Assembly: GCA_034231615.1 (NCBI GenBank)
Contig: CM067318.1
Location: 39,780,769 to 39,844,768 of the forward strand
Length of the DNA stretch: 64,000 nucleotides
Reading direction: 5' to 3'
DNA from: Meghimatium bilineatum
Lineage: Eukaryota; Mollusca; Gastropoda; Stylommatophora; Philomycidae
The number at the start of each line of letters is the position of its first letter. The stretch's first letter is position 1. The notes beneath the pieces were generated by a model. The model was not told where the DNA came from. It made no database searches and saw only the letters and a list, made by a program, of their open reading frames with translations. Positions 23,201 through 62,655 of the stretch are shown piece after piece. The translations under genes were made by a program, and so were the position numbers.

Positions 23201-26200
23201 TCATAGATCACAGACACAGCTGCTGAATGTAGAGAAAACATGACATTCATAGATCAGACACAGCTACTGAATGTAGAGAAAACATGACATTCATAGATCA
23301 CTGACACAGCTACTGAATGTAGAGAAAACATGACATTCATAGATCAGACACAGCTACTGAATGTAGAGAAAACATGACATTCATAGATCACTGACACAGC
23401 TACTGAATGTAGAGAAAACATGACATTCATAGATCACTGACACAGCTACTGAATGTAGAAAAAAACATGACATTCATAGATCAGACACAGCTACTGAATG
23501 TAGAAAAAAACATGACATTCATAGATCAGACACAGCTACTGAATGTAGAAAAAAACATGACATTCATAGATCACAGACACAGCTGCTGAATGTAGAGAAA
23601 ACATGACATTCATAGATCACAGACACAGCTGCTGAATGTAGAGAAAACATGACATTCATAGATCAGACACAGCTACTGAATGTAGAGAAAACATGACATT
23701 CATAGATCACTGACACAGCTACTGAATGTAGAGAAAACATGACATTCATAGATCAGACACAGCTACTGAATGTAGAGAAAACATGACATTCATAGATCAC
23801 TGACACAGCTACTGAATGTAGAGAAAACATGACATTCATAGATCACTGACACAGCTACTGAATGTAGAAAAAAACATGACATTCATAGATCAGACACAGC
23901 TACTGAATGTAGAGAAAACATGACATTCATAGATCACAGACACAGCTGCTGAATGTAGAGAAAACATGACATTCATAGATCAGACACAGCTACTGAATGT
24001 AGAAAAAACATGACATTCATAGATCAGACACAGCTACTGAATGTAGAAAAAAACATGACATTCATAGATCACAGACACAGCTGCTGAATGTAGAGAAAAC
24101 ATGACATTCATAGATCACTGACACAGCTACTGAATGTAGAGAAAACATGTCATTCATAGATCACTGACACAGCTACTGAATGTAGAGAAAACATGACATT
24201 CATAGATCACTGACACAGCTACTGAATGTAGAGAAAACATGACATTCATAGATCAGACACAGCTACTGAATGTAGAGAAAACATGACATTCATAGATCAC
24301 TGACACAGCTACTGAATGTAGAGAAAACATGACATTCATAGATCACTGACACAGCTACTGAATGTAGAAAAAAACATGACATTCATAGATCAGACACAGC
24401 TACTGAATGTAGAGAAAACATGACATTCATAGATCACAGACACAGCTGCTGAATGTAGAGAAAACATGACATTCATAGATCAGACACAGCTACTGAATGT
24501 AGAGAAAACATGACATTCATAGATCAGACACAGCTACTGAATGTAGAGAAAACATGTCATTCATAGATCACTGATACAGCTGCTGAATGTAGAGAAAACA
24601 TGTCATTCATAGATCACTGACACAGCTACTGAATGTAGAGAAAACATGTCATTCATAGATCACTGACACAGCTACTGAATGTAGAGAAAACATGTCATTC
24701 ATAGATCACTGACACAGCTACTGAATGTAGAGAAAACATGTCATTCATAGATCACTGACACAGCTACTGAATGTAGAGAAAACATGTCATTCATAGATCA
24801 CTGACACAGCTGCTGAATGTAGAGAAAACATGTCATTCATAGATCACTGACACAGCTACTGAATGTAGAGAAAACATGTCATTCATAGATCACTGACACA
24901 GCTACTGAATGTAGAGAAAACATGACATTCATAGATCAGACACAGCTACTGAATGTAGAGAAAACATGACATTCATAGATCAGACACAGCTACTGAATGT
25001 AGAGAAAACATGTCATTCATAGATCACTGACACAGCTGCTGAATGTTAATGTTCATAACTATTTTATCAGCTATTCGAAACAGCTCAGATGGACAAGCTC
25101 TGCTGCCCCATTGAGAGAAATACAGTTCATTGAAGAACTACATACCAGCGTCAAGTCTGACTGGAGAAAGAGGTTGTGTGTACGAAAAAACAGAATAGTC
25201 GGAAAAGCAATGTCCTGTATACAAAAATAGCAGGAAAACTCATTTTCTCTCCATGTAATGTCTTGCCATGATTCTAAAATTTGAGATTCAATCTTCTTTA
25301 TCTCCCCTTCCTATACAGCTTTACCACCAGAACCATTAATTTCAATAGTGAAACAATGAAAACTTGCATGGTCTGGACATATATGCCGACATGATTCCTT
25401 ATTAAAAACAATACTGCAGGAAACAATCAAAGACGGACGAAGCAGAAGAGGACACATAAAAGCACGGACAGACAACATCAAGGACTGGACAAGATATTTT
25501 CTCATTGGTCCACATCGTCGAAGATAGAAATGGCTGGATGGAAGACACTGCGTGTGTTGATGCATCCAGTGTGGTATCCCTACGATTCTGACAGGTTACA
25601 GGTTTATAGATTGATAGATAAATCTCCCTTTTTCTCCAATTGCAAGTAGCTATCTCTAAAGGTCTTTCTACAAACCCAAAAGGTTCCAACTCTCAGCTCG
25701 GTGCACAATACAAAAGGTTCCAATTCTCAGCTCAGTGCACAATACAAAAGGTTCCAACTCTCAGCTCAGTGCACAATACAAAGGCAGAGTCTGTTACTCA
25801 ATGGGGCACAAGTCAAGTAGCAAGTTATTACCTATCTATGTATCTTCTTTAACTATTAAATGAAATACAAAAAAAAACCAAATCAAATGTTGTGGACATA
25901 TTCAAAGACAAGTTGACGGCCTTTTGCATCTTTACAGATGGCCAGGTTGCAGGCCAGTACAGATGGCCATGTTGCAGGACAGTACAGATGGTCAGGTTGC
26001 AGGCCAGTACAGATGGCCATGTTGCAGGCCAGTACAGATGGTCAGGTTACAGGCCAGTACAGATGGCCATGTTGCAGGCCAGTGTAAAATTTCTAATGCA
26101 CTATGAGGAATTCAAATTAGCTAAATTGCAGAAAGACATGGTCTCTTTTTATTTCACACATGATTGCTTGTCCAGGCAGGCTTTATGGACAAAGTGCATT

Positions 26201-45470: not shown

Positions 45471-45752
45471 TACGCAAACATTTGTATCAAAGTATGTCTG
45501 GATCATCACCCCCAAGAACGAACGTCTCCCATGGAAAACAAGACCATTTGCCATCAAAGCCTTTTCCTGCAGCTTCCACAAAAACATCAAGTGAAAGATT
45601 CTCATCTCCTGAAGGGAAGAAGTCCAAAACCACAGCCGAAAATAAACAGGCTCCTTCACCACCTAGACAAACGGTGGCCAGGAACAAGACAACATCTTCA
45701 AAAAGCAAAACGGGAAAAAACAAGAATAAGACCGGAGAAGCTATCGTTACAG
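45471..45752 (+). CDS. ROCO gene first coding exon (start at 45494)
   Basis: Acceptor tcatatccacag ends at 45470, suggesting that a 5' untranslated exon lies upstream. The ATG at 45494 begins MSGSSPPRTNVSHGKQDHLP. A further in-frame ATG at 45401 would add a hydrophobic run from intron-like sequence and is less likely. The piece is rich in S, P, K and T with no fold seen. Ends at phase 1 before donor gtaagaat. Confidence 0.8.
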
Positions 45753-48700
45753 GTAAGAATACTTACAGCAGTGGGAGAAATTCAGCAGTTTAGAGAATAT
45801 TCAGTTAAATATTTTCTTCTTCGTCCACGTTCATTCTCATACTCCAGGTTAGCAGGGCATAGTCCAGAGAATGCACAGCATTGTAACATGGTTTACCGCC
45901 TATTTCATTATCTGCAACTTTTAGTAGACCCATCAACTTCAGAATGGCTTTGGGTCTCTTTGATCTTTTGTGAAATGGGACAGTCAATCCTCACCCCATT
46001 ATCCTGTAGTAACCTTTTACGACATGCATGTCAGGTCACAGTGTTGCGATTATATGGTTCTTTTTTTGTGGTCCTTGGCAACACAAGGACTAATTTTGTT
46101 AATGCTTCAGAGAATTGTCCAGTAATGTAAAGGCAAAGTATATATAACTGTGTCAATTTATGTTAAAAAAAACAATAATAATTTGGGTCTACCACATTCA
46201 GAATATAGACGGCACAAGTGTTACACACGGAGAGAGAAATAAACATATTCTCCAAAGTCACAATTTTTAGCCAATGTGAAGTCAGATGTGGCAGGTCGAA
46301 AGGACTGGACATCACAACAAAGCTCTGTTCTCTAGACTTCATCCTGCTAAGTGGCAGGAATTAGAAAAGGTATGCAGATAAATAAGACGACAATATTTTA
46401 ATTTGTCTTAATCCCCAGAAATTATAGGCAATGAAGCTCTTACTTCCTATGTTCAATTTTTTTTTTTTGGGGGGGGGGGGGGTCATCCAGAGTTCTCTTT
46501 CACACCCAGAAGACTCTCAAATCTCAGCGATATGCAATGCAGTGAGAAGTGTATCTAGAAGACTCCAAACTCTCAGTGATATGCAATGCAGTGAGAAGTC
46601 TCCTACTCAGAGGAGGTCTATGTGTTTATGTTGAAGGCATGTTCCACATTCTAAATGCAGATACCAATCACAAAAAACCTGTGACACATATGGTGGTACA
46701 GCTCAATCCATTTATAACAACTTGATCCTGACACAGTTCATTGTCAATCCCTTTATAACAACTTAATCCTGACACAGTTCAATCCCATTATAACAACTTT
46801 ATACTGACAGACAGTTCAACCCTATTATAACAACTTGATCCTGACAGTTAAAGCCCTTTATAAAAACTTGATCCTGACAAAGTTAAATCCCTTTATAACA
46901 ACTTGATCCTGGCAGTTAAATTCCTTTATAACAACTTGATCCTGACACAGTTCATTGTCAATCCCTTTATAACAACTTAATCCTGACACAGTTCAATCCC
47001 ATTATAACAACTTTATACTGACAGACAGTTCAACCCTATTATAACAACTTGATCCTGACAGTTAAATCCCTTTATAAAAACTCGATCCTGACAAAGTTAA
47101 ATCCCTTTATAACAACTTGATCCTGGCAGTTAAATTCTTTTATAACAACTTGATCCTGACAGACAGTTAAATCCCTTTATAACAACTTGATCCTGACAGA
47201 CAGTTAAATCCCTTTATAACAACTTGATTCTGACAGACAGTTAAATCCCTTTATAACAACTTGATCCTGACAGATAGTTCAATCCTATTATAACAACTTG
47301 AACAGCACAAATAACAGCTTCACTTTAGAGCTAGTAGCACAGTGTACTTGACATTCTCTGGTTCAAATCACATGAATATCTGTGCTGATTCTCTGAGAGC
47401 AAACACAGCAGAAGACAGAATATACAAAAAATAATAAACTAATTCGAGATTGTGAAAAGTGTCATTAAAATAGGGAATTTTATTATAGACGTATGCACTA
47501 TAGAGGAAGAATTCTAGTGTAGCACTTCTCAAATATCATGATTAAATCTGGCTCAATGCACAACTGATGAAACCAATGAAATGACAGAGCACATTGTGCA
47601 AGTCCAAATCTATGGCACTGCTAAATATGAAATCTGATTGATACTTTACACCCACAATACATGTTTTCTGAAGTCTATAATCTCGTATGCAAACATAATG
47701 ATGAGACTAAATTACTAAGTCCAAGCATAAAAATGATAATAAAATTAATGTTCTTATTACTTCAAGAGAGATTTTTTATTTCATAATCAGATGACAAGAG
47801 AAATGAAACTATAAATGTGCCAGAGCTAACCCAATCAGGACTGGAAATAGCTGACTGGTCAGGACAAGGGATGACTAGCATACCTTTCAATATTTTGGCA
47901 GGTGAGTTCATACCTTTTAATCTTATGACAAGTGAGTTATCATACCTTTCAATATTATGACACGTGAGTTATCATACCTTTCATTCTTATGGCAGGTGAT
48001 GATCATACCTTTTCAATCTTATGACAGTTGATCATACCTTTCAATCTTATGACAGTTGATTATACCTTTCAATCTTATGACAGGTGAGTGACCATACCTT
48101 TCAATCTTATGACAGTTGATCATACCTTTCAATCTTATGACAGGTGAGTGATCATACCTTTCAATCTTATGACAGGTGAGTGATCGTACCTTTCAATCTT
48201 ATGACAGGTGAGTGACCATATCTTTCAATCTTATGACAGGTGACAGATCATACTTTTCAATCTTATGACAGTTGATCATACCTTTCAATCTTATGACAGG
48301 TGAGTGATCGTACCTTTCAATCTTATGACAGGTGACAGATCATACTTTTCAATCTTATGACAGTTGATCATACCTTTCAATCTTATGACAGTTGATCATA
48401 CCTTTCAATCTTATGACAGTTGATCATACCTTTCAATCTTATGACAGACCAGCCATGAATTTCCACACTAGATAGAAGTTATAAACCACCGGAGAACTCT
48501 GAGGGTTGACACATCCAAACTAGTACCCCTACGATCCTGATGGGTTATGGATGAATGGATAGTTGCAATAGATCAACAACTGTTTCCAAATGTTAAATGC
48601 ACACCCATAATCCCAACTGTTGTTGTTAACCTGTTCTACAAATTCTTGCAGATCTTAATCGCTATGAGATCCACACATCTGAGATTGCAGATCTTAATAA

Positions 48701-51700
48701 TTTTCAGATCCACACATCTGAGATTGCAGATCTTAATCCTTTCAATCTTATGACAGTTGATCATACCTTTCAATCTTATGACAGTTGATCATACCTTTCA
48801 ATCTTATGACAGACCAGCCATGAATTTCCACACTAGATAGAAGTTATAAACCACCGGAGAACTCTGAGGGTTGACACATCCAAACTAGTACCCCTACGAT
48901 CCTGATGGGTTATGGATGAATGGATAGTTGCAATAGATCAACAACTGTTTCCAAATGTTAAATGCACACCCATAATCCCAACTGTTGTTGTTAACCTGTT
49001 CTACAAATTCTTGCAGATCTTAATCGCTATGAGATCCACACATCTGAGATTGCAGATCTTAATAATTTTCAGATCCACACATCTGAGATTGCAGATCTTA
49101 ATCACTGTGAGATCTACACATCTGAGATTGCGGATCTTAATCACTTTTGGATCCATATATATGAGATTGCAGATCTTAATCACCGTGAGATCCACACACC
49201 TGAGATTGCAGATCTTAATAATTTTCAGATCCACACATCTGAGATTGCAGATCTTAATCACTGTGAGATCCACACATCTGAGATTACTTATTATTCTTCT
49301 ACCAATGTTTACATGTAACATCTTCAGCTTTTAGTCTCAGACTCCCAAATCATGATGCGTATGATAGAAACATATATATTAATTAAAGAATGAGTCACGT
49401 TACTGTACAACTCTGTTGTCCAAAGCATGGATACATTGCCCTAGTCATGCAGGGGTCAGAGGCAATGAAAGAATAGCAATGATGAGCAATGGTGTGGTTG
49501 ATGGAACAGTATTAAAAAGAGATAGGACAGAGTCCTAATAAGGACATTCACTAATTTACTACAGAGTGAAGAAGATGGTGCTGAAAGGGAAATAACAAAC
49601 ACAGACAAACGGATATGAACAAAATCATGATGACCAGAGAAAGCGTGTCCGCTCTGGAAAAATATAAAGATCACATAATCAACATCTGAGATTCTGACAT
49701 ACTCTTTGAATGCTGCTGGAATTGATAGCAGAGCACTTATGGGAAAATCCTGTGTGCCAAGATATTGGTTTCAAATCAAGAACTTATGCTTATAATGTAT
49801 ATATGGGCTTTTTCATCTTGTAGATATTCATTTAGTAAAATTAAAAGTAACTACTTGAGCAGTATCTCTAATGAATGAAACCTTTTATATGATCAAGTCA
49901 CAGCTTAAAATATATCATATAATTTTAATATCTGAATTAATAGCAAAAGATGTTGGACACCTAATCTTGACATCCAATAATCTGCGGTCTATACCCACGG
50001 ACATTGTACGTATGAAGCACTTAGAGAAGTTGGATATTTCCAAGAACGGTATCAGATGTATGAGCAGTACCGACTACTCTGGGCTGCCTGAAGAGATGGC
50101 TCAGTTGGTGAACCTTACGGAGCTTTATATCTCAGAGTGTAACCTGCCGTTCATGCCACCTATCATTTTTAAGATGACAAGGCTGAAGATTCTGGATATT
50201 AGCAGAAACAAGGTAAACATGAGTTTCAATTGTGTTAAGGTAATCAATGGAAGAATCCTGAATTAAAACATGCCTACTGGCATGACTGTTGTTGCCATGT
50301 TGAATAGGGTAGGAATGAATGAACACACTGTGGCCTTCCATTGCATGTTTAAGGAGTTAGGTAGAGAGAGAGAGGGGTAGGTAGAGAGAGAGGTTGGTTA
50401 TCCCACCTCGTAGAAAGTTCTAATTGGTTAACAAAATATCACTACCCAGGAAGAAAGTACAGATAGCGCAGCTATGCCGTAAATTTGACTACATTTTATC
50501 GTAACAAAGCTGTAAACCATAACACAATGAATACCATTCTCTGGATTACATTCTGCTAATCTGCAAAAGTTTGAATGAACGCAGAAAAAGAAGATATCCT
50601 GTTGAGAAACCTTTGTTAATGAGATGGCACTTGATGATGCTGATACCCGAAGTTTGATATGACACAAAGTAGAAGAAAAAATAACACACCTGATAGAATG
50701 TATGACTGAAAACTACGATAGCACAGTGGTTAGCTCATTGCTTCATAACCTGTTGGTGCAGAATCGACTCCATGTTGAAGGGGTATATTTTTCCAGCCAC
50801 AAATGGACATTGCACAAATCAAGCTAGCCTCATGTCAAGCTAGCATCATGAAACATCTTGCAATGTAAAGATGTCAAGCTAGCCTCATGTCAAGCTAGCC
50901 TCATGTCAAGCTAGCCTCATGTCAAGCTAGCCTCATGTCAAGCTAGCCTCATGTCAAGCTAGCATCATGAAACATTTTGCAATGTAAAGATGTCAAGCTA
51001 GCCTTATGTCAAGCTAGCCTCATGTCAAGCTAGCCTCATGTCAAGCTAGCCTCATGAAACATTTTGCAATGTAAAGATGTCAAGCTAGAATCAAATCAAG
51101 CTAGCCTCATGTCAAGCTAGCCTCATGTCAAGCTAGCCTCATGTCAAGCTAGCCTCATGTCAAGCTAGCCTCATGTCAAGCTAGCATCATGTCAAGCTAG
51201 CCTCATGTCAAGCTAGCATCATGTCAAGCTAGCATCATGAAACATTTTGCAATGTAAAGATGTCAAGCTAGCCTCATGTCAAGCTAGCCTCATGTCAAGC
51301 TAGCCTCATGAAACATTTTGCAATGTAAAGATGTCAAGCTAGCATCATGTCAAGCTAGCCTCATATCAAGCTAGCATCATGAAACATTTTGCAATGTAAA
51401 GATGTCAAGCTAGCCTTATGTCAAGCTAGCCTCATGTCAAGCTAGCCTCATGTCAAGCTAGCCTCATGAAACATTTTGCAATGTAAAGATGTCAAGCTAG
51501 CCTCATGTCAAGCTAGCCTCATGTCAAGCTAGCATCATGAAACATTTTGCAATGTAAAGATGTCAAGCTAGCATCATGTCAAGCTAGCCTCATGTCAAGC
51601 TAGCCTCATGTCAAGCTAGCCTCATGAAGCATCTTGCAATGTAAAGATGTCAAGCTAGCCTCATGTCAAGCTAGCCTCATGAAACATTTTGCAATGTAAA

Positions 51701-54700
51701 GATGTCAAGCTAGCCTCATGTCAAGCTAGCCTCATGTCAAGCTAGCCTCATGAAACATTTTACAATGTAAAGATGTCAAGCTAGCCTCATGTCAAGCTAG
51801 CCTCATGTCAAGCTAGCCTCATGTCAAGCTAGCCTCATGTCAAGCTAGCCTCATGTCAAGCTAGCATCATGTCAAGCTAGCATCATGAAACATTTTGCAA
51901 TGTAAAGATGTCAAGCTAGCCTTATGTCAAGCTAGCCTCATGTCAAGCTAGCCTCATGTCAAGCTAGCCTCATGAAACATTTTGCAATGTAAAGATGTCA
52001 AGCTAGCCTCATGTCAAGCTAGCCTCATGTCAAGCTAGCATCATGAAACATTTTGCAATGTAAAGATGTCAAGCTAGCATCATGTCAAGCTAGCCTCATG
52101 TCAAGCTAGCATCATGTCAAGCTAGCATCATGAAACATTTTGCAATGTAAAGATGTCAAGCTAGCCTCATGTCAAGCTAGCCTCATGTCAAGCTAGCATC
52201 ATGTCAAGCTAGCATCATGAAACATTTTGCAATGTAAAGATGTCAAGCTAGCCTTATGTCAAGCTAGCCTCATGTCAAGCTAGCCTCATGAAACATTTTG
52301 CAATGTAAAGATGTCAAGCTAGCCTCATGTCAAGCTAGCCTCATGTCAAGCTAGCCTCATGAAACATCTTGCAATGTAAAGATGTCAAGCTAGCCTCATG
52401 TCAAGCTAGCCTCATGAAACATCTTGCAATGTAAAGATGTCAGGCATGGATGTTGACCCCCTAGTACAAAATTGGTCATTACAAATAAACAATACCTAAC
52501 ATCATAATCCCCTCCACTCACATCACAATGGGTGTCTTCCTCTAAGTTTATTCTCAAACTCCTGTTGGTTAGCAGGCTATTGTCAGAAGAACAGAATACA
52601 TTGTGACCTGGTATACAGTGTGGCGAGAAACAAAGATGGTGATAAGGGCAGGATCCCAAGGTGACATGAGTTTGTCATTCTTGTTTCCTGTGGCAGGCGG
52701 TGAAGTTTCACTTTCAGTACTAAATCTATCTTTACCTGGTATTCTTTTTTATGAATAAGTGTTCTAGAACTTCTACAAGTTCAAGATGATGCTTATTGAC
52801 TCAAGATGAGGGATTAATTTATTATGACTTATTGACTCAAGATGAGGGATTAATTTAATATGACTTATTGATGCAAGATGAGGGATTAATTTAATATGAC
52901 TTATTGACTCAAGATGAGGGATTAATTTAATATGACTTATTGTCTCAAGATGAGGGATTAATTTAATATGACTTATTGACTCAATATGAGGGATTAATTT
53001 AATATGACTTATTGACTCAAGATGAGGGATTAATTTAATATGACTTATTGACTCAAGATGAATGACTGCCTCAAGATGACTGAATGACTCAAGATGGCTG
53101 ATTGATTCAAAATGACTGACTAAAGATGACTGATTGGCAAGATAGGTGATTAACAAGATGACAATGTCCAAGATGACTGATTGACTACAGATGACTGATT
53201 GACATCAGAGAATGGTAGAAATGGGAGTGACTAGAGGCGAAGGAAGAAAGTGCTCCTTCTCCGGAAAGATCAGAAGAACCCATAACCAGCAACTTACTGG
53301 GACACTGAGCTTATACACTTTTAGATGGCTGACGGAGCAGCAAGCAGAGCATATATGGGAATGCCCCCAGTGCTGTCAAGCTTGTTCCTAAATCAAGAAT
53401 CAAGACAGATTGACTAAAGATGACTGATTGTCAAGATGAGTGATTGTCAAGAAGTAATGTCAAGAAGTCATGAAGTAATGGTTGGTAGTACGAAGATCGT
53501 GAATAGAAATTTAGTACTAATTGTCGAATGAAGTAATGGTCGGTAGAAAGAGGATCGTGAATAGAAAGTTAGAACTAATTGTCAAATGAAGTAATTGTCG
53601 GTAGAATGAGGATCGTGAAAAGAAAGTTAGAACTAATTGTTACTTGAAGTAATGGACGGCAGTACGAAGATCATGAATAGAAATTTAGTACTAATTGTCG
53701 AATGAAGTAATGGTCGGTAGAAAGAGGATCGTGAATAGAAAGTTAGAACTAATTGTCACTTGAAGTAATGGTCGGTAGAATGAGGATCGTGAACAACATT
53801 TACAATTACTGAGAGTATTTCAGGACAGGATGGAAAAGGAAGTTCAAAATAAAATAAAATTTGAACAGTGGAATACCTCAAAAACATATTCATCTCCCCC
53901 CCCCCCCAAACCAATATCAAAAATCATTCCAAAGACATTCATCAATATCCCGTCTCTATACATGTACCATGTTTCTGTTAATGTTGTTAGTGTATTTTGT
54001 TTTTTCTTACAACACTTAATATGTATCTCTCTTTCCCACAACTGTACTGTTTCCAGTTTCAACATAAATAAATGGATATCCCCCATACAGATGTGGAAAG
54101 CAACAGGAAACTACCACATTATTCTCCAAAGAAGAAAGTCATGGCGACACACAGAAGTAGACCTACAGCATGTAGTGTTAATGTTAATATTGCAACACGG
54201 AACGTCAGATCGTTAACGCAGAGTTATAAATTAGACATCAAACAAGAAATGGAAAGAATGAACGTAAATATCTTAGGAATGAGTGAAATGAGATGGACTG
54301 GGGCAGGAGAGATACAATCAGATAAATTTAAAGTCATATACTCAGGTGGACAAAAACACAAGAGAGGTGTAGGCATATTATTAGACACAGAAACAGGAAA
54401 AATGCTGAAGGGTTTCATGGCTCTCATATCTTTATTACTCTGCTGAAGGCAGATGTGTTGGGCCATTGGCGCAAATAAAACAGAGCGACACAACTTATTT
54501 CCATTCTCTAGACTACATTCTGCTAGAAATCTAGTAGGGCCATTGTCCTGCTACAAGAGAGATCCTGCGGGAGTTTGAGAATGAACGCTGAAGAAGAAAT
54601 CTACTAGACTGGGTTGTTCTCTAACACTGAGGATTTATCCCTAAAAACTCTCTAAGCACATCAGATTGACCTGAATTCACATGAACTTTCTCAACAGATC

Positions 54701-57700
54701 AGTATTCTTCTGCCTGAAGTCAGTCAACTGGTCAATCTTGTTCGTCTCAACCTACAACAGACAAATATCACTTCTCTACCACCTGAGATTGCATACTGCC
54801 AAGAACTTGAGGAGATTTACCTCTGGGGTAACTCTATAGAAACTCTCCCAGAGACTCTGTCGGAAATGCCGAAACTAAAAGTGGTTGCCTTGAACTACAA
54901 GTAAATATCTATATGTTTTCTTGTATTTAATTATTATAATTTATAAATATATTAATTTGCTTTGTATGGTTTTTTTTCTGTTTTTGTAAAGCTTTTAGAA
55001 ATAATTGCGTCTTGTGTACAATTTTTTTTTATCTCAACTTGTTTACAGATATGGAAGCAATGAATTATAAACTGTGTGAGTGCCATGCATGCTGTAAGAG
55101 AAGACTAAGAAGAGTTGGACATGAGTTCGCTACCCCTATTCTGTATTAAGTAAATTCCAAAAAACCTGCACGGATGTAAGAAAATGCCCTTGAATAACAG
55201 ATCTGATGATGATTGATGGAATGATGAAGTTAGTTTGAGTTGGTAGCTCTTGACAGCCCTAAGTATTTCTGACAAAAAATACAGATCCCCCCTCAATGAA
55301 TAACCGAGATGGCACCTGAACTTGTATAGTTTGCTGTCATAAAGGCATGGGTTGTGTTTGGGGGTTATTGTTGCATCCTGTCTTAAAGGCATAGGTTGTG
55401 TTTGGGGGTTATTGTTGAATCCAGTCTTAAAGGCATGGGTTGTGTTTGGGGGTTGTTGTTGCGTCCTGTCAATTTTGTTCCTTTTGTTTCATCTCCCATC
55501 AGTTTTTGTATCACCATTCATTATGAGCTGTTCTATACTTTACTCATTGTGTGCTATGTTGTGTTCTGGATGAAGACCATTTCATCAAATTGTAATTTGT
55601 GTGTTTTCTTGTGTGCTTGCAGTGATTATTAAAACTTCCTTCTGCCTGTGTATTGAATTTTTTCCTGACATCACAAACTCCTGAAGACTAGCAGGATGTA
55701 GTCCAGAGAATGGAATGTGTGTACCTTCTGATTGGTTAAAAAACCGACATCACTGTTCTCTGGGCAAACTCATATGTGCCCAGTTTCCCCCTAGCAGATG
55801 CAGAAGTGTATAGTAAAAAAGTAAAGTAACCCATAGCATTTATTAATGCCGTAGGGGTGTGAGATGTTAGCGATCTCACATTTCACAGGCTCTGCAAATG
55901 AGGGTGGTAGCCATCTCGTCTCCCTCGTAGTCTTTACTTCCCGGATTAATCCGGTACCCATTTAAGGCTGGGTCGACCTGGGAGCCGTTGCGATCTGAAA
56001 ACATTTCCGGCAGAAGTGTATGCACACAGATGATTCTCATAGCTCACTAGTAAAAGACTTTCCTCAATTCTGCCCTTCTGATGCTTCAATATCCTGTGTC
56101 CATCAGTCTTGATCTGTCTCTTATTCACTTTCCTGGAAATTTTTCCTCCATGATAAATCTTTCTACTCAACAATTGTGTCTTTTTATGTGTCCTAAATGT
56201 TAACTTGCATTTTTTTTAAGTTCTGAGCAGTGAATCATCTTCTATATTCATGTCTTTGTAGATGTCTGTGTTGGTTCATAATTCTGTCCATGAAATGCTT
56301 AGGACCTTTCTATAACTGTTCATTTTGAATACTGATATTTTACTTTCCATTGCAGATGTCATTGCTCACGTCTCACAACCATGTGTTGCCACTGGAAAAA
56401 TACAGCTTCTTAATAGTGATAGATTTTTTTCTTCCCTTGTGCTCATTGCCATAGATTTTTCATCTGTGATGATGTTTTAGTAGGGCCATTGCTAATCTAT
56501 CTGATCTCCGCCGAGCAATCGCCTGTGGTATTGACAATTGACCCTAGATATTGAAGTTGTTGACATTTTCTCGCTGTTTTTTGTCAATGACTATAGTAGA
56601 TGTGAGATAATCATATGCATTATTTTGTCTTTTTTTTCATTGAGGAAAAGATTGACATAATCAAGTCTTCTAAACCTGTGGGTCTCCTATATATTAGGGT
56701 AGTGCCATCTAACTTATTATCACCTGCTTATTATTCATGTCATATTATTTCCTCTAGAAATTTCTGCGGTGTCGTGGATCCCTACATGGAGAATCTCTTG
56801 AAAAAAGGACAGATTAAGTCAGAGCATATTCCTATTGTTGTGTTTGAGCTGCCAGCGCTAGAAGTTTTGGACCTTGAGAACACCAAACTGAACACACTAC
56901 CAGATGTCTACAACAAGATGCTGAAGGAATTCTATCTTTGCAAGAATTTCTTACAGGTAGTACTGTCAAAATTGTCCTCATTTTGTCCTACAATAAATAT
57001 GAAGGATGTATTTTACTTAACGAGATGTTCAAGAAAGACTTTTATTGAGTAGATGTCTTTATTTTTTTTCTTTTGAGGGAGGTAGGGAGAAGAGATATTG
57101 ACTAGTAAAGTCACTGATCATGTTTACTTCAGTGATGGGTAAATGTGTTTTATCATCAAACAACAGCTATGTGACAGGTAAAACAGCTATGTGACAAGTA
57201 AAACAGCTATGTGACAGGTGAAATAGCTATGTGACAGGTAAAATAGCTATGTGACAGATAAAACAGTTATGTGACATAGATAAAAAAGCTGTGTGACAGG
57301 TAAAACAGCTGTGTGACAGGTAAAACAGCTGTGTGACAGGTAAAACATCTGCGTGACAGGTGAAATAGCTATATGACAGGTAAAACAGCTGCGTGATAGG
57401 TAAAATAGCTATGTGACAGGTAAAAGTGGTCACTGATCATGATTTCAGTGATGGGTAAATGTGTTTTGTCATTAAAAAAACAGCTACGTGACAAGTAATA
57501 ATAGCTTCTCAGTCAGATTGACACTATATAGGATGGGACAGCCAACACCACCAAAACAATCCTTAGTCGCCATTTGCACCATGCATGGAAGCTACACTGT
57601 GTTGTCATTCTTTGTTCGCCTTCCAGACCATGGCAACACACAGGCTTGAATACATATTAAAAAATAGTGGTATAAGATTTTTAAGATATAGGATCAAGTC

Positions 57701-60700
57701 AGCAAGTTTTTGACTGTGGTGAATATCTATGCAATATATTATGTTCAGTATGTTGCTATTATGCTCTGAACTGTTCAAATGCACAGCTGCCTGCAGCTGT
57801 CATCAACACTCAAATATGAATCAGAACTTCCATCAAAGTCAGATCGTAATAATTCTATATTAGGCCTACAATCATCATCTAGCTAATATTGGAATTATTA
57901 ACTAACATATTTTAGTACATTTCCAAAGCCTAATTAGCTGTAAAACATCGAGGAGGTCTAGATTTAATTACTTCAAATGCAAGTAGCAATAATTTACACA
58001 AACTGAAAATATAAACACACCTGTTTATAGGAAAATATCAAAATGAATGTCTCCAACTTTCACATGCTTCTCAAGATAGACCTATTCTCGATTGAAAGTA
58101 CCATATATATTGAAAGTACCATATATATTGAAAGTACCATATATTAGCGACTCAGTGGATGAGATTAAAAGACATGATACCTTGTTGAAGACCTTACTTG
58201 AGGGTAAAGTCGAGGGGAGGTGAGCAAGAGGTAGGCAGAGATACAAGTGGGAGAGTAACATCACGAGATGGACAGGTTAATCTAGCAGAGTGCACCAGCA
58301 AGACAAAAGACAGGGATTTTAGAGGTCTGTTGCAGTCAACCTTCGCTGCAGAGACAGCACCTGATGATGATAAAATATACACTATTCTCCTGCATACCTT
58401 TATTTTAATTAACAGACTGTCCCTTCAAGTATCTACAACCTGAAACATCTACAAATACTGGATATGTCCAATAATCTACTTAGCAGCCTGCCAGAGGATA
58501 TTGGCAAACTCATTGGGCTCAAAGTGCTGCGTCTGGCTACTAACAGCATTGAGACTATACCTTCATCTATTGGCAACCTTACACAGCTTGAGGAGTTTAA
58601 CATTTCACAGAATAGAATCCAAAGACTTCCACCACAGATAAAAGGTAAGCCTCAAATAGTAAACTGTCACCTTAAGGATAATTAAACCCTTAAGGATAAT
58701 TAAATTGTCACTTTAAGGATAATTAAACTGTCACCTTCAGGATCATTAAACTGTCACCTTAAGAATAATTAAATCTTGTTACATTTACAGTATTCTTTTA
58801 TTTATCTGCATTCATTCCCAAATTCCTGCAGATTAGCAGAATGTAGTCCAAAGCATTCCCAAATTCCTAGATAGATAGTATAGGCCCATATCAATCTAGA
58901 CAAGAAATCCTCCCATAGTCAGCCTAGTCAACAAGAAGTCATGACTGATTTACATGGACAGGTTGGTCATCCGTCAAAACTGATGCGCATGGGCCCTTAC
59001 TGCCAGATCAAAAAGAAGAACAGTACATGCAGCCAGTGGTGCCTTTACTGCAACAACAAGCAGTCTAACAATGGAAGTATTCGCTGTAATGCAATATAAT
59101 TAGGAAGAAAAAAAACATGTGATGTACGTATGCGACAGGTGGAGTCATTAGAGAGAGCTAAAATGTGGGCATCACTACAAAAACTCACACTTATCTTTGT
59201 CCCCGGACACGAAGGTAAACAAACGGGCCGACCAATTAGCTAGCCTCATCACCTCAACAGATGGTCATGGACAGTCTATGGACAGAGCAGACATACTCAT
59301 TGCTCTTTGTGAGTCCTCAATATCAGAGGATTTTTAGATAAATGAGCATGAGTTAATATTGAGAATGCGCAAATTGGGAGTGAGGATGGTATGGTCCGTA
59401 GAGAACATTTGACAAAGATTTCAAGCAGTGAACCAACATAGAACCAGAACCATCAGCCATTATATTCTGAGAGATTTACTGAAGCAAACATCTGAGCAAC
59501 TATGGATGTGTCTTGTGTGCAAAGAGGATAATCAACATATCTAATACATCCCACCATGATTATCTATATAAAAGTATAAGCCCACATTAATTTAGACAAG
59601 AAGTCATCACACCATGATGATCTATATAAAACAATATTTATATGAAAGTCACCAAAACAGCTTCGAAAACATGCAGATTTTACAAACTGGAATGGACTGT
59701 CAGAGCGAAAACTTTAAAGGGGGGAAACTCACTATAAGGGCAATCATATAATTTCCGGTAAGGTCACTGGTGCTTTCCTCATTAGCATTCGCACTACATG
59801 AATGTGATCTTTTAGAGGGGTGTTAAGTATTGCTATGAAACACTTCATTTTATAAAATATTGTCACTGATCTAATAGAATGTCAATCATCAACACATGCA
59901 CCAGCCAGTAATGTGCAAATTCATGTGACAACAATCCGTCATAATTTAACAAATAGTGAGTGATCTACCATTTGTTTTTTGCAACAACCCTCCAAATCAT
60001 CACAACCATGTCTTAATAGATTTTAACAGGTAAAGCACAGAGTCAAGAAAAAAATTAAAAAACAGGCACTAAACAAACAGTGATGATGCATGTACTAGGA
60101 AAAGGTACAAAGTTTTTTGTACTAAATGAAATGGCAAAATACTAGTTGTTTTCAAATGATCATTACTTTCCCATGTTAAAAACACAGATATGTAATGTCA
60201 GATTCAGGAATAGGTGTGTGGATTATTGTCCTCACACACCGGACATGCCCATATATGTTAAGAGTATAATCACAGCAACAAAGAAATGCGGCAGACATAT
60301 ATATATATACATATAGCGATTTTGGTTATTACATATATATTAAGTCGGTCCGGGCCAAGTTTTTATGACAAGATTTGACTATATTTATTTTGGTTATTAC
60401 ATATATATTAAGTCGGCCCGGGCCAAGTTGTTATGACAAGATTTGACTATATTTATTTTCTTCCTTATCGATCTGTTCAACAAACATTTTTTTCCCCTGT
60501 AGGATTGATGGCTTTGCAAGTGCTCATATTGGCAGGGAACAAAATCCAAACCCTACCTGATGCGATCTGTGAGCTTACTCATCTGAAAACTCTGGACCTT
60601 ACCAACAACGAAATGCGCTCCCTACCGATGGCAATGTACCATCTGACAAAACTGACTGTGGCACATAGCTACCACAATCTTGACAAGTGTGGTTTGTGGT

Positions 60701-62655
60701 TATATAAGAATCCTTTAGAGGAACCACCACCAGAAGTATGGCGAACAGAAAAGTCAAATAATATATTTGGGTATCTAAAGAGGGCTGTTACTTTCAATAT
60801 TGAGAATCTGCAACGACAAAAGGTTCTAGTCTTTGGGGAGAGTCAATGTGGTAAAACCTGTTTAGTAACAGCACTAACTCTTAGAAAATCCTTCTTGGTT
60901 GGCGGACCACAGGATAAAACAAGGCTTCTACATCAAACAATATGGGTGACTGACAATAAGGTTGAGTTTGTCTTCAACGACTTTGGTGGAGACAATGTTT
61001 ATAGAACACTCTATAGGATGTTCTTGGACAATAAGGCTTTAGTACTGGTTGTGTACAATTCTGCAACGCTGTGTGAAGAGAATTTCTACAGCTGCATTGG
61101 CCAGTGGCTTGATATGTTAAGTGCCAGCTCTCCTGGAGCGATCGTGAAGATAGTTGGAACACATGCAGATCTACTGCATGCAAATATGGATAAAGATGAA
61201 AAGGAAGAACAACTTGACAACGATCACAAGCTTAAATTGGCTGAAAATTCTACAGATGATGCTGAAAATGGTGATTTATCACTTATAAACCCACAGTCAA
61301 CAATTATTAGAACTGTTAGTAATAGTACATCTTCAGTTACAGAAAATAAAGAAATAATTTATGATTTACTGCATAAATACTTGAACTTAAAAGATGCCAA
61401 AACAAGAGCAGAGTTGGAATCACTAGAGAATGACATTAAGAAAGTAGAAAAATCTGGTCAAATGAAGGTGAATGAGGCATCACTAATGATGCTGAGAGTG
61501 AGAGAGAAGAAACTGAAAGACATTCTACAAAATCCTCTAAAAATTCTGCCAGAAATCAGTTTTATAAGCTCTGCTAGAAGTCTGGAAGGAATTCACAAGC
61601 TAACTGATGAACTGGAACTTCTTGCTATTGACAAAACCATTTTCCCACATAACCAGCGATTCATTCCTGGCCACTGGAAACAGCTATCGCTGATACTGAA
61701 ACAAAGAAAAGGGTTTTACCTATACTGGGATGATGTTCAAAACATTGCAGAGAGGTTTAATGTAAAAAATGAGGAACTCAGAGAGTGTATCAACCATCTA
61801 CATGGCATTGCTGATGTCATCTGGTTCTGTGACGATTCTGCACTGTCCCAGATAGTTTTTCACAAACCTAAAGTACTTGTAAACATTATTACGTCTCTAT
61901 ATAGACATGACAGTACTGATTTCTTGAACTATGATAACAAAGCATTTCTTTGTAAAGGTAGAATGAACAGTCAGCAGTTCCAAGAATGTGCTGAAATCTT
62001 TACCCATACCGGAGCGATATCTAGGCCTCTACTAAACTGCTTCCTGTTCCAGTTCAACTTCAACAATGATGATATTGCTCAGCTATTAGAACTTCTACCC
62101 CTTCTTGAAATCAGCTACTCTGTACCAGAGCCTGATGTACCAACTGGACATTTATACAACCGTCCTTTGATGGTCCTTCCATGGTACAATAAGGACACAG
62201 ATATGGCTCTTCTGAAAAAGGTATGGTCTGACCCTAAAGAAGAAACTGTCAAAGAGCTAGTAGTCTTTTACACCTTTCCATTCTTCTACCCCCCTGAAAT
62301 CATTCCATGTTTATCAGTCCAGATACAAGATTTTGTGGATGAGAGATTGGACTGGAAAGATTTCATATATGCCAGCAGAGATACACAGAAAATGTTGCTC
62401 TATCACACAACTGAAGGCGACCGCATGCTCCATCATACAGCGGGAGATAGCATGTTCCATCATACAACTGCAGAAGATAACAATCTCCTGACTATTCTAG
62501 TCCGTGGCTCAGATTTCTCTGAGACACATACTTTCATGGAAGAGCTTGTGAATCTGGTAAACATGCAGTTACTCAGATATCCTGGCCTGTACTGGAAGCT
62601 GACAATTCCTATGGGAGTTGGCAACCTCAAAAATGTCACTGGCAGCTCTTGTTAG
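45494..62655 (+). CDS. LRR-ROC-COR protein (MFHAS1-like ROCO GTPase), complete
   Basis: Seven exons join in frame: 45494-45752, 47791-47901, 49944-50212, 54698-54900, 56758-56956, 58416-58644 and 60503-62655. The CDS is 3423 nt, about 1140 residues. All junctions are GT-AG and all phases agree. Layout: residues 1-86 Ser/Pro/Lys-rich and probably disordered; about 87-490 leucine-rich repeats of the LxxLxLxxNxLxxLPxxI type; from about 525 a Roc GTPase domain with P-loop GESQCGKTC (535-543), DFGG switch II (583-586) and THAD in the G4 position (643-646); then a COR domain to the stop. No kinase follows, which fits the MFHAS1 class rather than LRRK. MFHAS1 proteins are cytosolic and are linked to innate immune signalling; human MFHAS1 is about 1050 residues. 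A charged insert of about 130 residues follows the G4 motif. Function in this animal is inference. Confidence 0.93.
46695..47305. repeat. 35-37-bp minisatellite, about 17 copies
   Basis: Unit ttgatcctgacagacagtta aatccctttataacaac. A block of about six units (46718-46930) was copied as a whole: the same series of variants recurs about 212 bp further. Confidence 0.94.
47322..47402 (+). mobile_element. tRNA-like SINE head
   Basis: Gctagtagcacagtgtactt (A box region) and tctggttcaaatcacatg (B box) with correct spacing. Confidence 0.5.
47410..47790. other. ROCO gene intron 1, nothing recognised
   Basis: Unique AT-rich sequence up to the acceptor of exon 2. Confidence 0.4.
47791..47901 (+). CDS. 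ROCO gene exon 2: first leucine-rich repeat
   Basis: 111 nt, acceptor ttcataatcag, donor gtgagt, phase 1 in and out. Encodes DDKRNETINVPELTQSGLEI, then a leucine-rich-like run ending SIPFNILA. Its last 23 bases and the donor are the first unit of the minisatellite that fills the start of intron 2. Confidence 0.85.
47879..48450 (+). repeat. Minisatellite derived from an exon end and its splice donor
   Basis: The first unit, catacctttcaatattttgg caggtgagtt, is the end of ROCO exon 2 plus donor. It is followed by about 17 more units of 24-32 bp such as catacctttcaatcttatga caggtgagtgat. At least five later units keep an exact CAG|GTGAGT. Short units lack the ggtgagt part. Confidence 0.93.
48385..49100. 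repeat. 365-bp tandem duplication, two copies
   Basis: Sequence around 48447-48735 recurs 365 bp further right (e.g. atggatgaatggatagttgc at 48547 and 48912) with no difference seen. The unit includes the end of the exon-derived array, a LINE 3' tail (cccctacgatcctgatgggt) and the first two units of the 39-bp array. Confidence 0.93.
49012..49290. repeat. 39-bp minisatellite, about 7 copies
   Basis: Unit gcagatcttaatcactgtga gatccacacatctgagatt. Length divides by three, giving false ORFs on both strands. Two more units are at 48650-48735 through the duplication above. Confidence 0.93.
49420..49665 (+). mobile_element. LINE RNase H fragment
   Basis: Reads CPSHAGVRGNERIAMM with frame breaks, then LKRDRT, typical of the end of a LINE RNase H domain. 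Confidence 0.6.
49944..50212 (+). CDS. ROCO gene exon 3: leucine-rich repeats
   Basis: 269 nt, acceptor tctgaattaatag, donor gtaaac, phase 1 in, 0 out. Encodes KDVGHLILTSNNLRSIPTDI, MKHLEKLDISKNGI, then LPEEMAQLVNLTELYISECN and MTRLKILDISRNK, i.e. about three and a half LRRs. One repeat has an insert with CMSSTDYSG. Confidence 0.92.
50690..50800 (+). mobile_element. tRNA-like SINE head
   Basis: cgatagcacagtggttagct is an A box region; gcagaatcgactccatg a decayed B box. Confidence 0.6.
50818..52442. repeat. 16-bp satellite with composite higher-order units
   Basis: Basic unit atgtcaagctagcctc, repeated 2-7 times, then a 22-bp spacer-like unit atgaaacattttgcaatgta aag, then again. About 17 such composite blocks. 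A gctagc palindrome occurs in nearly every unit. Variants (catc, ctta) mark repeated blocks, e.g. 51410-51560 and 51905-52060. Confidence 0.96.
52785..53070. repeat. 36-bp minisatellite, about 8 copies
   Basis: Unit gactcaagatgagggattaa tttaatatgacttatt. Produces an artificial 132-residue minus-strand ORF. Confidence 0.93.
53180..53395 (+). other. Possible decayed LINE segment
   Basis: Reads MVEMGVTRGEGRKCSFSG and later WLTEQQAEHIWECPQC in one region. The W..C..C pattern resembles the zinc-binding stretch after LINE RNase H, but evidence is weak. Confidence 0.35.
53465..53800. repeat. About 59-bp minisatellite, 5-6 copies
   Basis: Unit tgaagtaatggtcggtagaa agaggatcgtgaatagaaag ttagaactaattgtcact, with a longer two-unit repeat. 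Confidence 0.92.
54090..54425 (+). mobile_element. LINE 5' coding fragment (APE-type endonuclease start)
   Basis: NVNIATRNVRSLTQSYKLDI, MNVNILGMSEMRWTGAGEIQ and VIYSGGQKHKRGVGILLDTE match the N-terminal endonuclease of LINEs often labelled craniofacial development protein 2-like. The frame is open for 124 codons and is cut off shortly before the dispersed element at 54441. Confidence 0.9.
54441..54600 (+). mobile_element. Short dispersed element, full copy
   Basis: Plus-strand copy of the 155-bp family, with a single internal ccattgtcctgctacaagag. Located between the truncated LINE and exon 4 of the ROCO gene, whose acceptor is 97 bp further. Confidence 0.88.
54698..54900 (+). CDS. ROCO gene exon 4: leucine-rich repeats
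   Basis: 203 nt, acceptor aactttctcaacag, donor gtaaat, phase 0 in, 2 out. Encodes LLPEVSQLVNLVRLNLQQTN, SLPPEIAYCQELEEIYLWGN and LPETLSEMPKLKVVALNY. It has no start codon in a position that would make it visible as an ORF. It completes the LRR left open by exon 3. Confidence 0.93.
55340..55475. repeat. 44-bp minisatellite, 3 copies
   Basis: Unit aaaggcatgggttgtgtttg ggggttattgttgcatcctg tctt. Confidence 0.92.
56030..56610 (-). mobile_element. LINE 3' fragment
   Basis: Minus strand contains ERFYHGGKISRKVNKRQIKT-like, TDGHRILKHQKGRIEESLLL and other C-terminal LINE pieces with many breaks; also a CHYFSMATHGCETxAM-type piece near 56360. Confidence 0.65.
56758..56956 (+). CDS. ROCO gene exon 5: irregular LRR segment
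   Basis: 199 nt, acceptor tatttcctctag, donor gtagta, phase 2 in, 0 out. Encodes NFCGVVDPYMENLLKKGQIK, then FELPALEVLDLENTKLNTLP and LKEFYLCKNFLQ. The first 25 residues break the repeat pattern before it resumes. Confidence 0.88.
57170..57428. repeat. 20-bp minisatellite, about 13 copies
   Basis: Unit acagctatgtgacaggtaaa. Lies in intron 5 of the ROCO gene. Confidence 0.94.
57430..58080. other. ROCO intron 5, little recognised
   Basis: The part 57500-57650 shares short blocks with 33530-33620 (ggataggccagcacc-like and accatgcatgg); the rest is unique. Confidence 0.35.
58085..58147. repeat. 18-bp repeat, about 3 copies
   Basis: Unit attgaaagtaccatatat. Confidence 0.9.
58150..58385 (+). mobile_element. 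LINE 3' end, second family
   Basis: Reads RGGEQEVGRDTSGRVTSRDG in one frame and LKDMIPC-, RQRYKWESNITRWT-like in another, as at 27140-27375. Ends 30 bp before the acceptor of ROCO exon 6. Confidence 0.7.
58416..58644 (+). CDS. ROCO gene exon 6: leucine-rich repeats
   Basis: 229 nt, acceptor ttttaattaacag, donor gtaagc, phase 0 in, 1 out. Encodes regular repeats: IYNLKHLQILDMSNNLLSSL, LIGLKVLRLATNSIETIP and LTQLEEFNISQNRIQRLP. Confidence 0.95.
58678..58772. repeat. 23-bp repeat, about 4 copies
   Basis: Unit ccttaaggataattaaactg tca, directly after ROCO exon 6. Confidence 0.88.
58950..59560 (+). mobile_element. LINE RNase H fragment with downstream zinc-like motif
   Basis: KMWASLQKLTLIFVPGHEGK, then shifted LASLITSTDGHGQ-like and LWMCLVCKEDNQH-like pieces, the usual RNase H end plus CxxC..H region of LINEs. 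Many stops. Confidence 0.75.
59565..60320. other. ROCO intron 6, nothing recognised
   Basis: Unique sequence with an (at)n run at 60298-60312. Confidence 0.4.
60322..60457. repeat. 68-bp tandem duplication before the last ROCO exon
   Basis: ttggttattacatatatatt aagtcggtccgggccaagtt ttatgacaagatttgact.. twice, with two differences. A relative (cggtccggaccaaattgtta) is at 3949-3990. Confidence 0.9.
60503..62655 (+). CDS. ROCO gene last exon: final LRRs, Roc GTPase and COR
   Basis: 2153 nt in one exon from acceptor tttttttcccctgtag to TAG. It opens with two to three LRRs (LMALQVLILAGNKIQTLP, LTHLKTLDLTNNEMRSLP), then VWRTEKSNNIFGYLKRA as the linker, the Roc domain with GESQCGKTC and NDFGGDN, and a charged acidic/basic insert around 61190-61540. 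The COR part includes FIPGHWKQL, YLYWDDVQNIAERF, LHGIADVIWFCDD and VFHKPKVLVNIITSLYRHD. It ends VGNLKNVTGSSC. Roc and COR on one exon is what sets the reading frame for the whole gene. Confidence 0.96.

Follow-up and report, generated by a model that had tools for sequence, protein, structure and literature searches.

The locus and its host gene

The 64,000-nt stretch of Meghimatium bilineatum DNA analysed here (the window), taken from a 1.61-Gb genome assembled in 32 contigs, carries on its forward strand a putative LRR-Roc-COR (ROCO) gene. Its predicted seven-exon model, built on reading frame, GT-AG borders and domains, keeps the frame with GT-AG borders throughout and encodes 1140 residues (Table 1). 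In this protein, Pfam searches detected LRR_8 (E 3.2e-42) and Roc (E 8.4e-10), both above their cut-offs, together with COR-A in the expected place (E 2.9e-6), the latter at a sub-threshold 27.7 bits (cut-off 35.3 bits). A genome search with the Roc-COR exon returned one other match, on contig C9, at 22% identity.

Exon 2 lies between an acceptor reading ...ataatcag/ATGACA and a donor reading TGGCAG/gtgagt (slashes mark splice boundaries), and joins exons 1 and 3 in frame. Its end encodes ...MTSIPFNILA and exon 3 goes on with KDVGHLILTSNNLRSIP, which together make up one complete LRR. The (I/L)PxxI pattern of the exon 2 end (..MTSIPFNILAAKDVGHLIL..) is found again in the other LRRs of the protein, and chains of LRRD1, an LRR protein, align over the exon 2/exon 3 junction. 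Because its sequence completes an LRR, the end of exon 2 is required with or without the array described below. Intron 2 spans 2042 nt, 68% of which fall inside arrays called by TRF, and ends at an acceptor at 49943 that scored weakly (−1.6 bits). This and all other splice scores were obtained with human donor and acceptor frequency tables, which rank the sites and are uncalibrated for this animal.

Table 1. Exons of the predicted ROCO gene and features of the intron 2 array, in window positions
Feature	Position	Strand	Remark
Exon 1	45494-45752	+	gene model
Exon 2	47791-47901	+	111 nt; phase 1 in and out
Exon 3	49944-50212	+	phase-compatible partner of exon 2
Exon 4	54698-54900	+	gene model
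Exon 5	56758-56956	+	gene model
Exon 6	58416-58644	+	gene model
Exon 7	60503-62655	+	gene model
Minisatellite, 19 tandem units	47879-48447	+	TRF, period 32, 18.7 copies
Unit 1, likely source unit	47879-47908	+	23 nt of exon 2 plus GTGAGTT
Exon 2 donor, presumed authentic 5' splice site	47902-47907	+	CAG/GTGAGT
Unit 2 donor-like site	47932-47937	+	CAA/GTGAGT, +30 nt; only downstream site reachable in open frame
In-frame TGA, unit 3	47958-47960	+	upstream of all five perfect downstream donors
Unit 3 donor-like site	47964	+	CAC/GTGAGT
Unit 4 donor-like site	47996	+	CAG/GTGATG
Unit 7 perfect donor-like site	48084-48089	+	GTGAGT; first CAG/GTGAGT copy, 182 nt from the real donor
Unit 9 perfect donor-like site	48144-48149	+	GTGAGT
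Unit 10 perfect donor-like site	48176-48181	+	GTGAGT
Unit 11 perfect donor-like site	48208-48213	+	GTGAGT, +306 nt
Unit 12 donor-like site	48240	+	CAG/GTGACA
Unit 14 perfect donor-like site	48300-48305	+	GTGAGT
Unit 15 donor-like site	48332	+	CAG/GTGACA
Second copy of 365-bp tandem duplication	48738-49102	+	TRF, 100% match; first copy from 48373

A minisatellite spans the exon 2 boundary

A unit-by-unit split resolved the TRF array into 19 units of 28-32 nt, the last of which comprises 23 nt and is devoid of a tail. The original prediction had read the first unit as the end of exon 2 plus CAG/GTGAGT, which TRF, the unit split and the gene model all confirm, and had counted about 17 further units in the intron; the intronic location holds, and the count is 18. 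The repeat unit therefore spans the exon-intron boundary placed by the gene model, as in the so-called mirages. In total, the 19 units carry 10 distinct cores.

The last array units are taken along by a 365-bp tandem duplication (48373-49102), which points either to recent enlargement of the intron by tandem copying or to mis-assembly at this site. That the array or this neighbour was duplicated through mis-assembly is an extremely improbable explanation of the locus: the perfect match between the two copies at the very end of the array would fit it, but the diversity of cores exceeds what simple mis-assembly produces and tandem arrays abound across the sampled genome. Indeed, tandem repeats account for 31% of the window and, across a sample of 20 pieces of 10 kb each, for 21.5% (range per piece 0 to 100%; merged arrays at 0.62 per kb). 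That sample includes one piece that is half N (L024) and one, L010 (C21:15000001-15010000), in which TRF scored tandem repeat throughout. In the ROCO gene, arrays cover one of the 12 junctions and 23 of the 3423 coding bases. With so high a density of tandem arrays, seeds that span a junction would be expected by chance.

Other arrays of the window include its longest, at 22235-25046 (62 copies of a 46-nt unit), and a 20-nt array in intron 5 (57162-57425) with units like ...GTGACAG/GTAAAA, which bears donor-like sequences in most units, away from exon ends. Two more, at 58660-58774 (15 nt past the exon 6 donor) and 60319-60459 (43 nt before exon 7), do not span the junctions next to them.

Donor-like sites and their consequence for the protein

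CAG followed by GT occurs in 9 of the 19 units and CAA or CAC followed by GT in two more, while the remaining eight have no GT. GTGAGT is missing from 11 of the 18 downstream units, eight of which also lack GT, and seven of these eight end in the tail TTGAT. On both strands, the window contains six CAGGTRAGT sites, all within the array. Besides the exon 2 donor these are exactly five (units 7, 9, 10, 11 and 14), in keeping with the forecast of at least five further units with a perfect CAG/GTGAGT; all score 12.2 bits, the same as the real donor, and lie within 400 nt of it. Scoring hence bears out their description as possible donors. The donor at 47902 is nonetheless probably the one used, since it bounds the 111-nt exon and preserves the protein.

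Each CAG/GTGAGT could alternatively act as a zero-length exon, or ratchet point, with the intron removed stepwise by recursive splicing. As acceptors, the CAG/GTGAGT units reach 3.5 bits, within the −1.6 to 12.8 bits of the gene's own acceptors; yet their pyrimidine tract is interrupted (CAATCTTATGACAG), the intron is just 2042 nt long and the first CAG/GTGAGT copy lies only 182 nt from the real donor, all of which renders this mode of removal highly improbable.

Read-through from exon 2 yields GEFIPFNLMTSELSYLSIL, followed by the in-frame TGA of unit 3, and a single one of the five perfect downstream donors (48208) would keep the frame length. Use of the CAA/GTGAGT of unit 2 would insert 10 residues into an LRR whose repeat measures 23-24 residues. 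The proposal that each donor would add LRR-like coding repeats consequently fails for this gene, because the stop precedes every perfect donor and unit 2 offers 10 residues; of the IPFNLMT reading on which it relied, the open frame survives in unit 2 only and closes in unit 3. The strong downstream decoys, if used, would instead give a premature stop and therefore aberrant transcripts at most.

Origin and turnover of the units

The exonic unit differs from the core consensus of the array at 3 of 23 positions, whereas no ungapped 23-mer on either strand of the window outside 47850-48830 comes closer to the core than 7 mismatches. The resemblance between exon end and array is therefore not a matter of chance, and it supports the earlier view of the exon end as the likely source of the units. 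Units 1-4 carry 3, 2, 2 and 2 changes from the consensus, respectively, as opposed to 0-1 in units 5-19; of the three variant bases of the exon, one recurs in unit 3 and one in unit 4. This pattern, visible on the exon side only, suggests a cluster homogenised inside and diverged at its edge, as in turnover that spares the edge. Pairwise distances per site amount to 0.318 in the donor-bearing tail and 0.061 in the exon-derived core; with tails diverging about five times more than cores, nothing suggests maintenance of the donors.

With regard to direction, the relatedness between unit 1 and the array is equal whichever arose first, and this would also accommodate an intronic array into whose first unit exon 2 was later extended by a shift of the donor. 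However, the IPFNIL encoded by the 23 exonic nt forms part of an LRR that extends into exon 3. Chains of LRRD1 can be aligned over the junction, and the protein repeats this pattern in its remaining LRRs; moreover, an array with the same arrangement adjoins a COMMD2 exon whose end shows conservation with human COMMD2 (see below). We therefore regard such a late extension as very unlikely. Spread from exon to array would be the simpler reading, because the protein alone already accounts for the exonic piece.

A dispersed repeat family was also considered as a source and rejected. The genome search with the array matched its own locus, its 365-bp copy and four other loci (L003-L006) at 66-70% identity with differing units. 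We treat these four as chance likenesses among AT-rich arrays of similar period, with a remote link possible through L003, which has a 15-nt stretch (TTCAATCTTATGACA) in common with a unit of the ROCO array. Dating of the array by paralogue comparison was dropped, since the sole other Roc-COR exon match is too distant.

Similar arrays at other exon ends

CAGGTRAGT is not in excess genome-wide, with 20,740 occurrences against 21,158 of its reversal (about 0.8 per 64 kb, array copies counted). A genome-wide search for triplets of CAGGTRAGT at a spacing of 8-38 nt, with the reversed motif as control, retrieved 1,832 and 1,177 overlapping matches, respectively; the triple pattern does occur in excess, although arrays contribute several matches each. 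Grouping by hand of the matches listed gave 25 donor and 14 control arrays on C1 plus the first 82.3 Mb of C2 (one-sided p 0.054), and 14 and 9 on C1 alone (p 0.20). Flanks were fetched for 20 of the 25 listed donor arrays (left out were one on C1 and four on C2) and for all 18 control arrays listed on C1 and C2.

Ten of the 20 donor-side peptides, picked by eye and for the most part the longest available, were run against Pfam, as were the 10 longest of the 18 control-side peptides; on the donor side, L044 was omitted despite its 48 codons, and L033, L039 and L040 entered as 60-residue pieces; PDB searches covered seven and two peptides, respectively. Two donor arrays have their first donor at the end of an exon with good support. 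One of them encodes ...YHNLEWRFDVQ of COMMD2 (L047; PDB 8f2r_B, E 9.1e-17; no Pfam match), its first donor reads CAA/GTAAGT and the exon end is conserved with human COMMD2. The other encodes ...VPDVLMYN of a neurotransmitter-gated channel ligand-binding domain (L042; Pfam E 3.7e-11), which we take to be acetylcholine-receptor-like. Support is moderate for a KCTD-type BTB exon (L032; Pfam E 6.6e-4, 20.4 bits, cut-off 21.4; PDB E 0.002) and weak for two further exons, one HRDC-like (L033; Pfam E 0.0062, 16.9 bits, cut-off 23.8; nothing related in PDB) and a second receptor-like one (L040; PDB receptor E 0.92, behind an unrelated chain at E 0.58; no Pfam match). Four arrays with a frame open at the donor (L030, L031, L046 and L048) were not counted; L030, L046 and L048 remained without a match in PDB (E up to 1) and in Pfam (E below 0.01). 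None of the 10 control flanks searched ends a supported exon (best Pfam E 0.044), and the two control peptides run against PDB reached E 0.076 at best.

Homology at the first donor thus occurs in 4 of 20 donor arrays against 0 of 18 controls (p 0.066), or in 5 of 20 (p 0.031), in two sets that were searched unequally. Open frames of at least 45 codons precede 9 of 20 donor and 2 of 18 control arrays (p 0.024), with medians of 35 and 20 (p 0.020), from hand-copied numbers with end points that differed between the sets and with inclusion of L065, whose fetched piece had no flank. The excess of donor arrays over controls is modest and the statistics are borderline. The two strong cases, COMMD2 and the neurotransmitter-gated channel, are independent of these statistics and stand on their own. 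Collectively, these data show the arrangement of the ROCO array at two to three further exon ends with homology support, and the ROCO array appears to be one of several mirage-type arrays in a genome in which tandem arrays are very frequent.

In the BTB, channel and COMMD2 arrays, an in-frame stop follows 2-13 nt past the exon end, while in the second receptor-like array (33-nt unit) the frame stays open for 88 nt. The HRDC-like array, with 31.5 copies of a 21-nt unit, keeps an open frame over about 400 nt, which reads as repeats of the GEWRKLT type. It makes a better candidate than the ROCO array for donor-dependent repeat addition, so that coding-repeat addition is conceivable elsewhere in this genome. 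In the fetched locus piece (C1:4231500-4236500), the array occupies L067:1179-1832, starts from the HRDC-like exon end and holds many CAG/GTGAGT. Another open frame in this piece, at L067:129-599, resembles a mariner-type transposase.

A model for the ROCO array

These observations are probably best explained by blind tandem duplication over a splice site, giving rise to a mirage-type minisatellite that is tolerated as long as its outermost donor works. Some 30 nt across the exon 2/intron 2 boundary would have been duplicated in tandem and amplified to a minisatellite. As the duplicated block consists of the exon end plus the donor, unit 1 would leave both whole and the copies would land in the intron. 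The exon-adjacent donor would then be chosen, favoured by exon definition of the 111-nt exon, and the gene would tolerate the array. Downstream copies would drift within the intron, where the perfect donors may be relics. The ROCO array would be neutral.

We also weighed a regulated decoy array, whose extra donors would bind U1 snRNP and thereby tune expression, either through diversion of a share of the transcripts to premature-stop isoforms or through protection of the intron against early polyadenylation. Five perfect donors as strong as the real one, packed within 400 nt and all behind an in-frame stop, would fit such a device, and one-unit retention is seen in RNA from a human ABCA7 donor VNTR. 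However, no part of the unit diverges more than the donor, with GTGAGT missing from 11 of 18 downstream copies, similar arrays lie at exon ends of unrelated genes, and the ABCA7 retention is said, in the part of that report available to us, to be not affected, in the context of VNTR length (PMC5954066). On balance, a regulatory role of this kind appears unlikely, and we favour blind duplication.

Taken alone, the ROCO array extends a known phenomenon to one further gene. A broader and rather unlikely possibility is that boundary-spanning arrays form a standing generator of identical 5' splice-site clusters, some of them open ladders and others dosage dials. If true, some dozens of genes would be concerned, by extrapolation from two contigs. 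Each donor of the HRDC-like ladder would add 7 residues or a multiple thereof, which would make protein length tunable through donor choice or array length, and ROCO-type arrays would turn donor slippage into premature stops, that is, into a dosage dial. The arrays also supply examples for the published model that has new introns seeded by mirages, as outlined in the portion of that work available to us (PMC3087553). With such arrays at the exon ends of unrelated genes, the genome provides a natural experiment on spliceosome choice between identical tandem donors of which only the outermost, next to the exon, preserves the protein. Should the first donor always win, exon definition or transcription order would outweigh the number of equal competitors; otherwise, premature-stop isoforms should scale with array length.

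Comparison with known systems

Lancelet mirages were reportedly the subject of work by Canestro in 2002, and a human parallel is said to be provided by the minisatellite of the interferon-induced gene 6-16 (G1P3/IFI6), attributed to Turri, Cuin and Porter (1995).

According to excerpts of two reports, mirages are minisatellite-like tandem copies of an exon-intron boundary, found in the lancelet genes Adh3, PGBD5 and troponin C and in the globins BflGb6 and BflGb9, which leave regular splicing undisturbed (PMC3087553, PMC3902484). As far as these excerpts go, the ROCO array is alike in that it consists of boundary copies with AG/GT in many but not all units, and in that the inner units are homogenised while the cluster boundaries are not. 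Unit size differs, with 10-72 bp in Adh3 and 150-160 bp in the globins (3 or 6 repeats in BflGb6) as compared with 19 copies of 28-32 nt in ROCO. Mirages are further characterised by length instability between haplotypes, and the ROCO array is known here from the sequence of one haplotype in a 1.6-Gb genome.

The human ABCA7 intron 18 VNTR, in the accessible text of its description, has units of about 25 bp that include the splice donor of the exon, a feature shared with ROCO. Its RNA reveals retention of one unit through a cryptic donor, with a frameshift, and skipping of exon 19; expanded alleles raise the skipping isoform (PMC5954066), and the statement quoted above on VNTR length concerns the retention event. 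That array begins with GT itself, without an exonic copy in the text at hand, whereas ROCO unit 1 holds 23 exonic nt; moreover, length polymorphism and RNA effects are reported for ABCA7, while the ROCO array is known from sequence alone. In human segmental-duplication genes with internal tandem repeats, minisatellites expand at exon-intron boundaries and, in the passages at hand, variable exonic repeats become introns or longer exons (PMC2812944), as opposed to the ROCO copies, which sit in an existing intron.

Intron gain by tandem duplication of AGGT likewise involves tandem copies of an AG/GT-bearing segment, and in the potato case of intron gain the duplicated sequence crosses the intron-exon boundary, as does the ROCO unit. 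The acceptor of intron 2 at 49943 lies outside the array, about 1.5 kb beyond it, and the locus is thus not an instance of such gain.

Literature searches with limited terms, run without this gene's name, returned no genome-wide count of boundary-spanning arrays. What may be new is that they recur, within a single large genome, at the exon ends of unrelated genes, together with the contrast between a closed (ROCO) and an open (HRDC-like) array. In kind, the ROCO array belongs to what is already known: it matches the lancelet mirages and resembles the ABCA7 VNTR and the 6-16 minisatellite.
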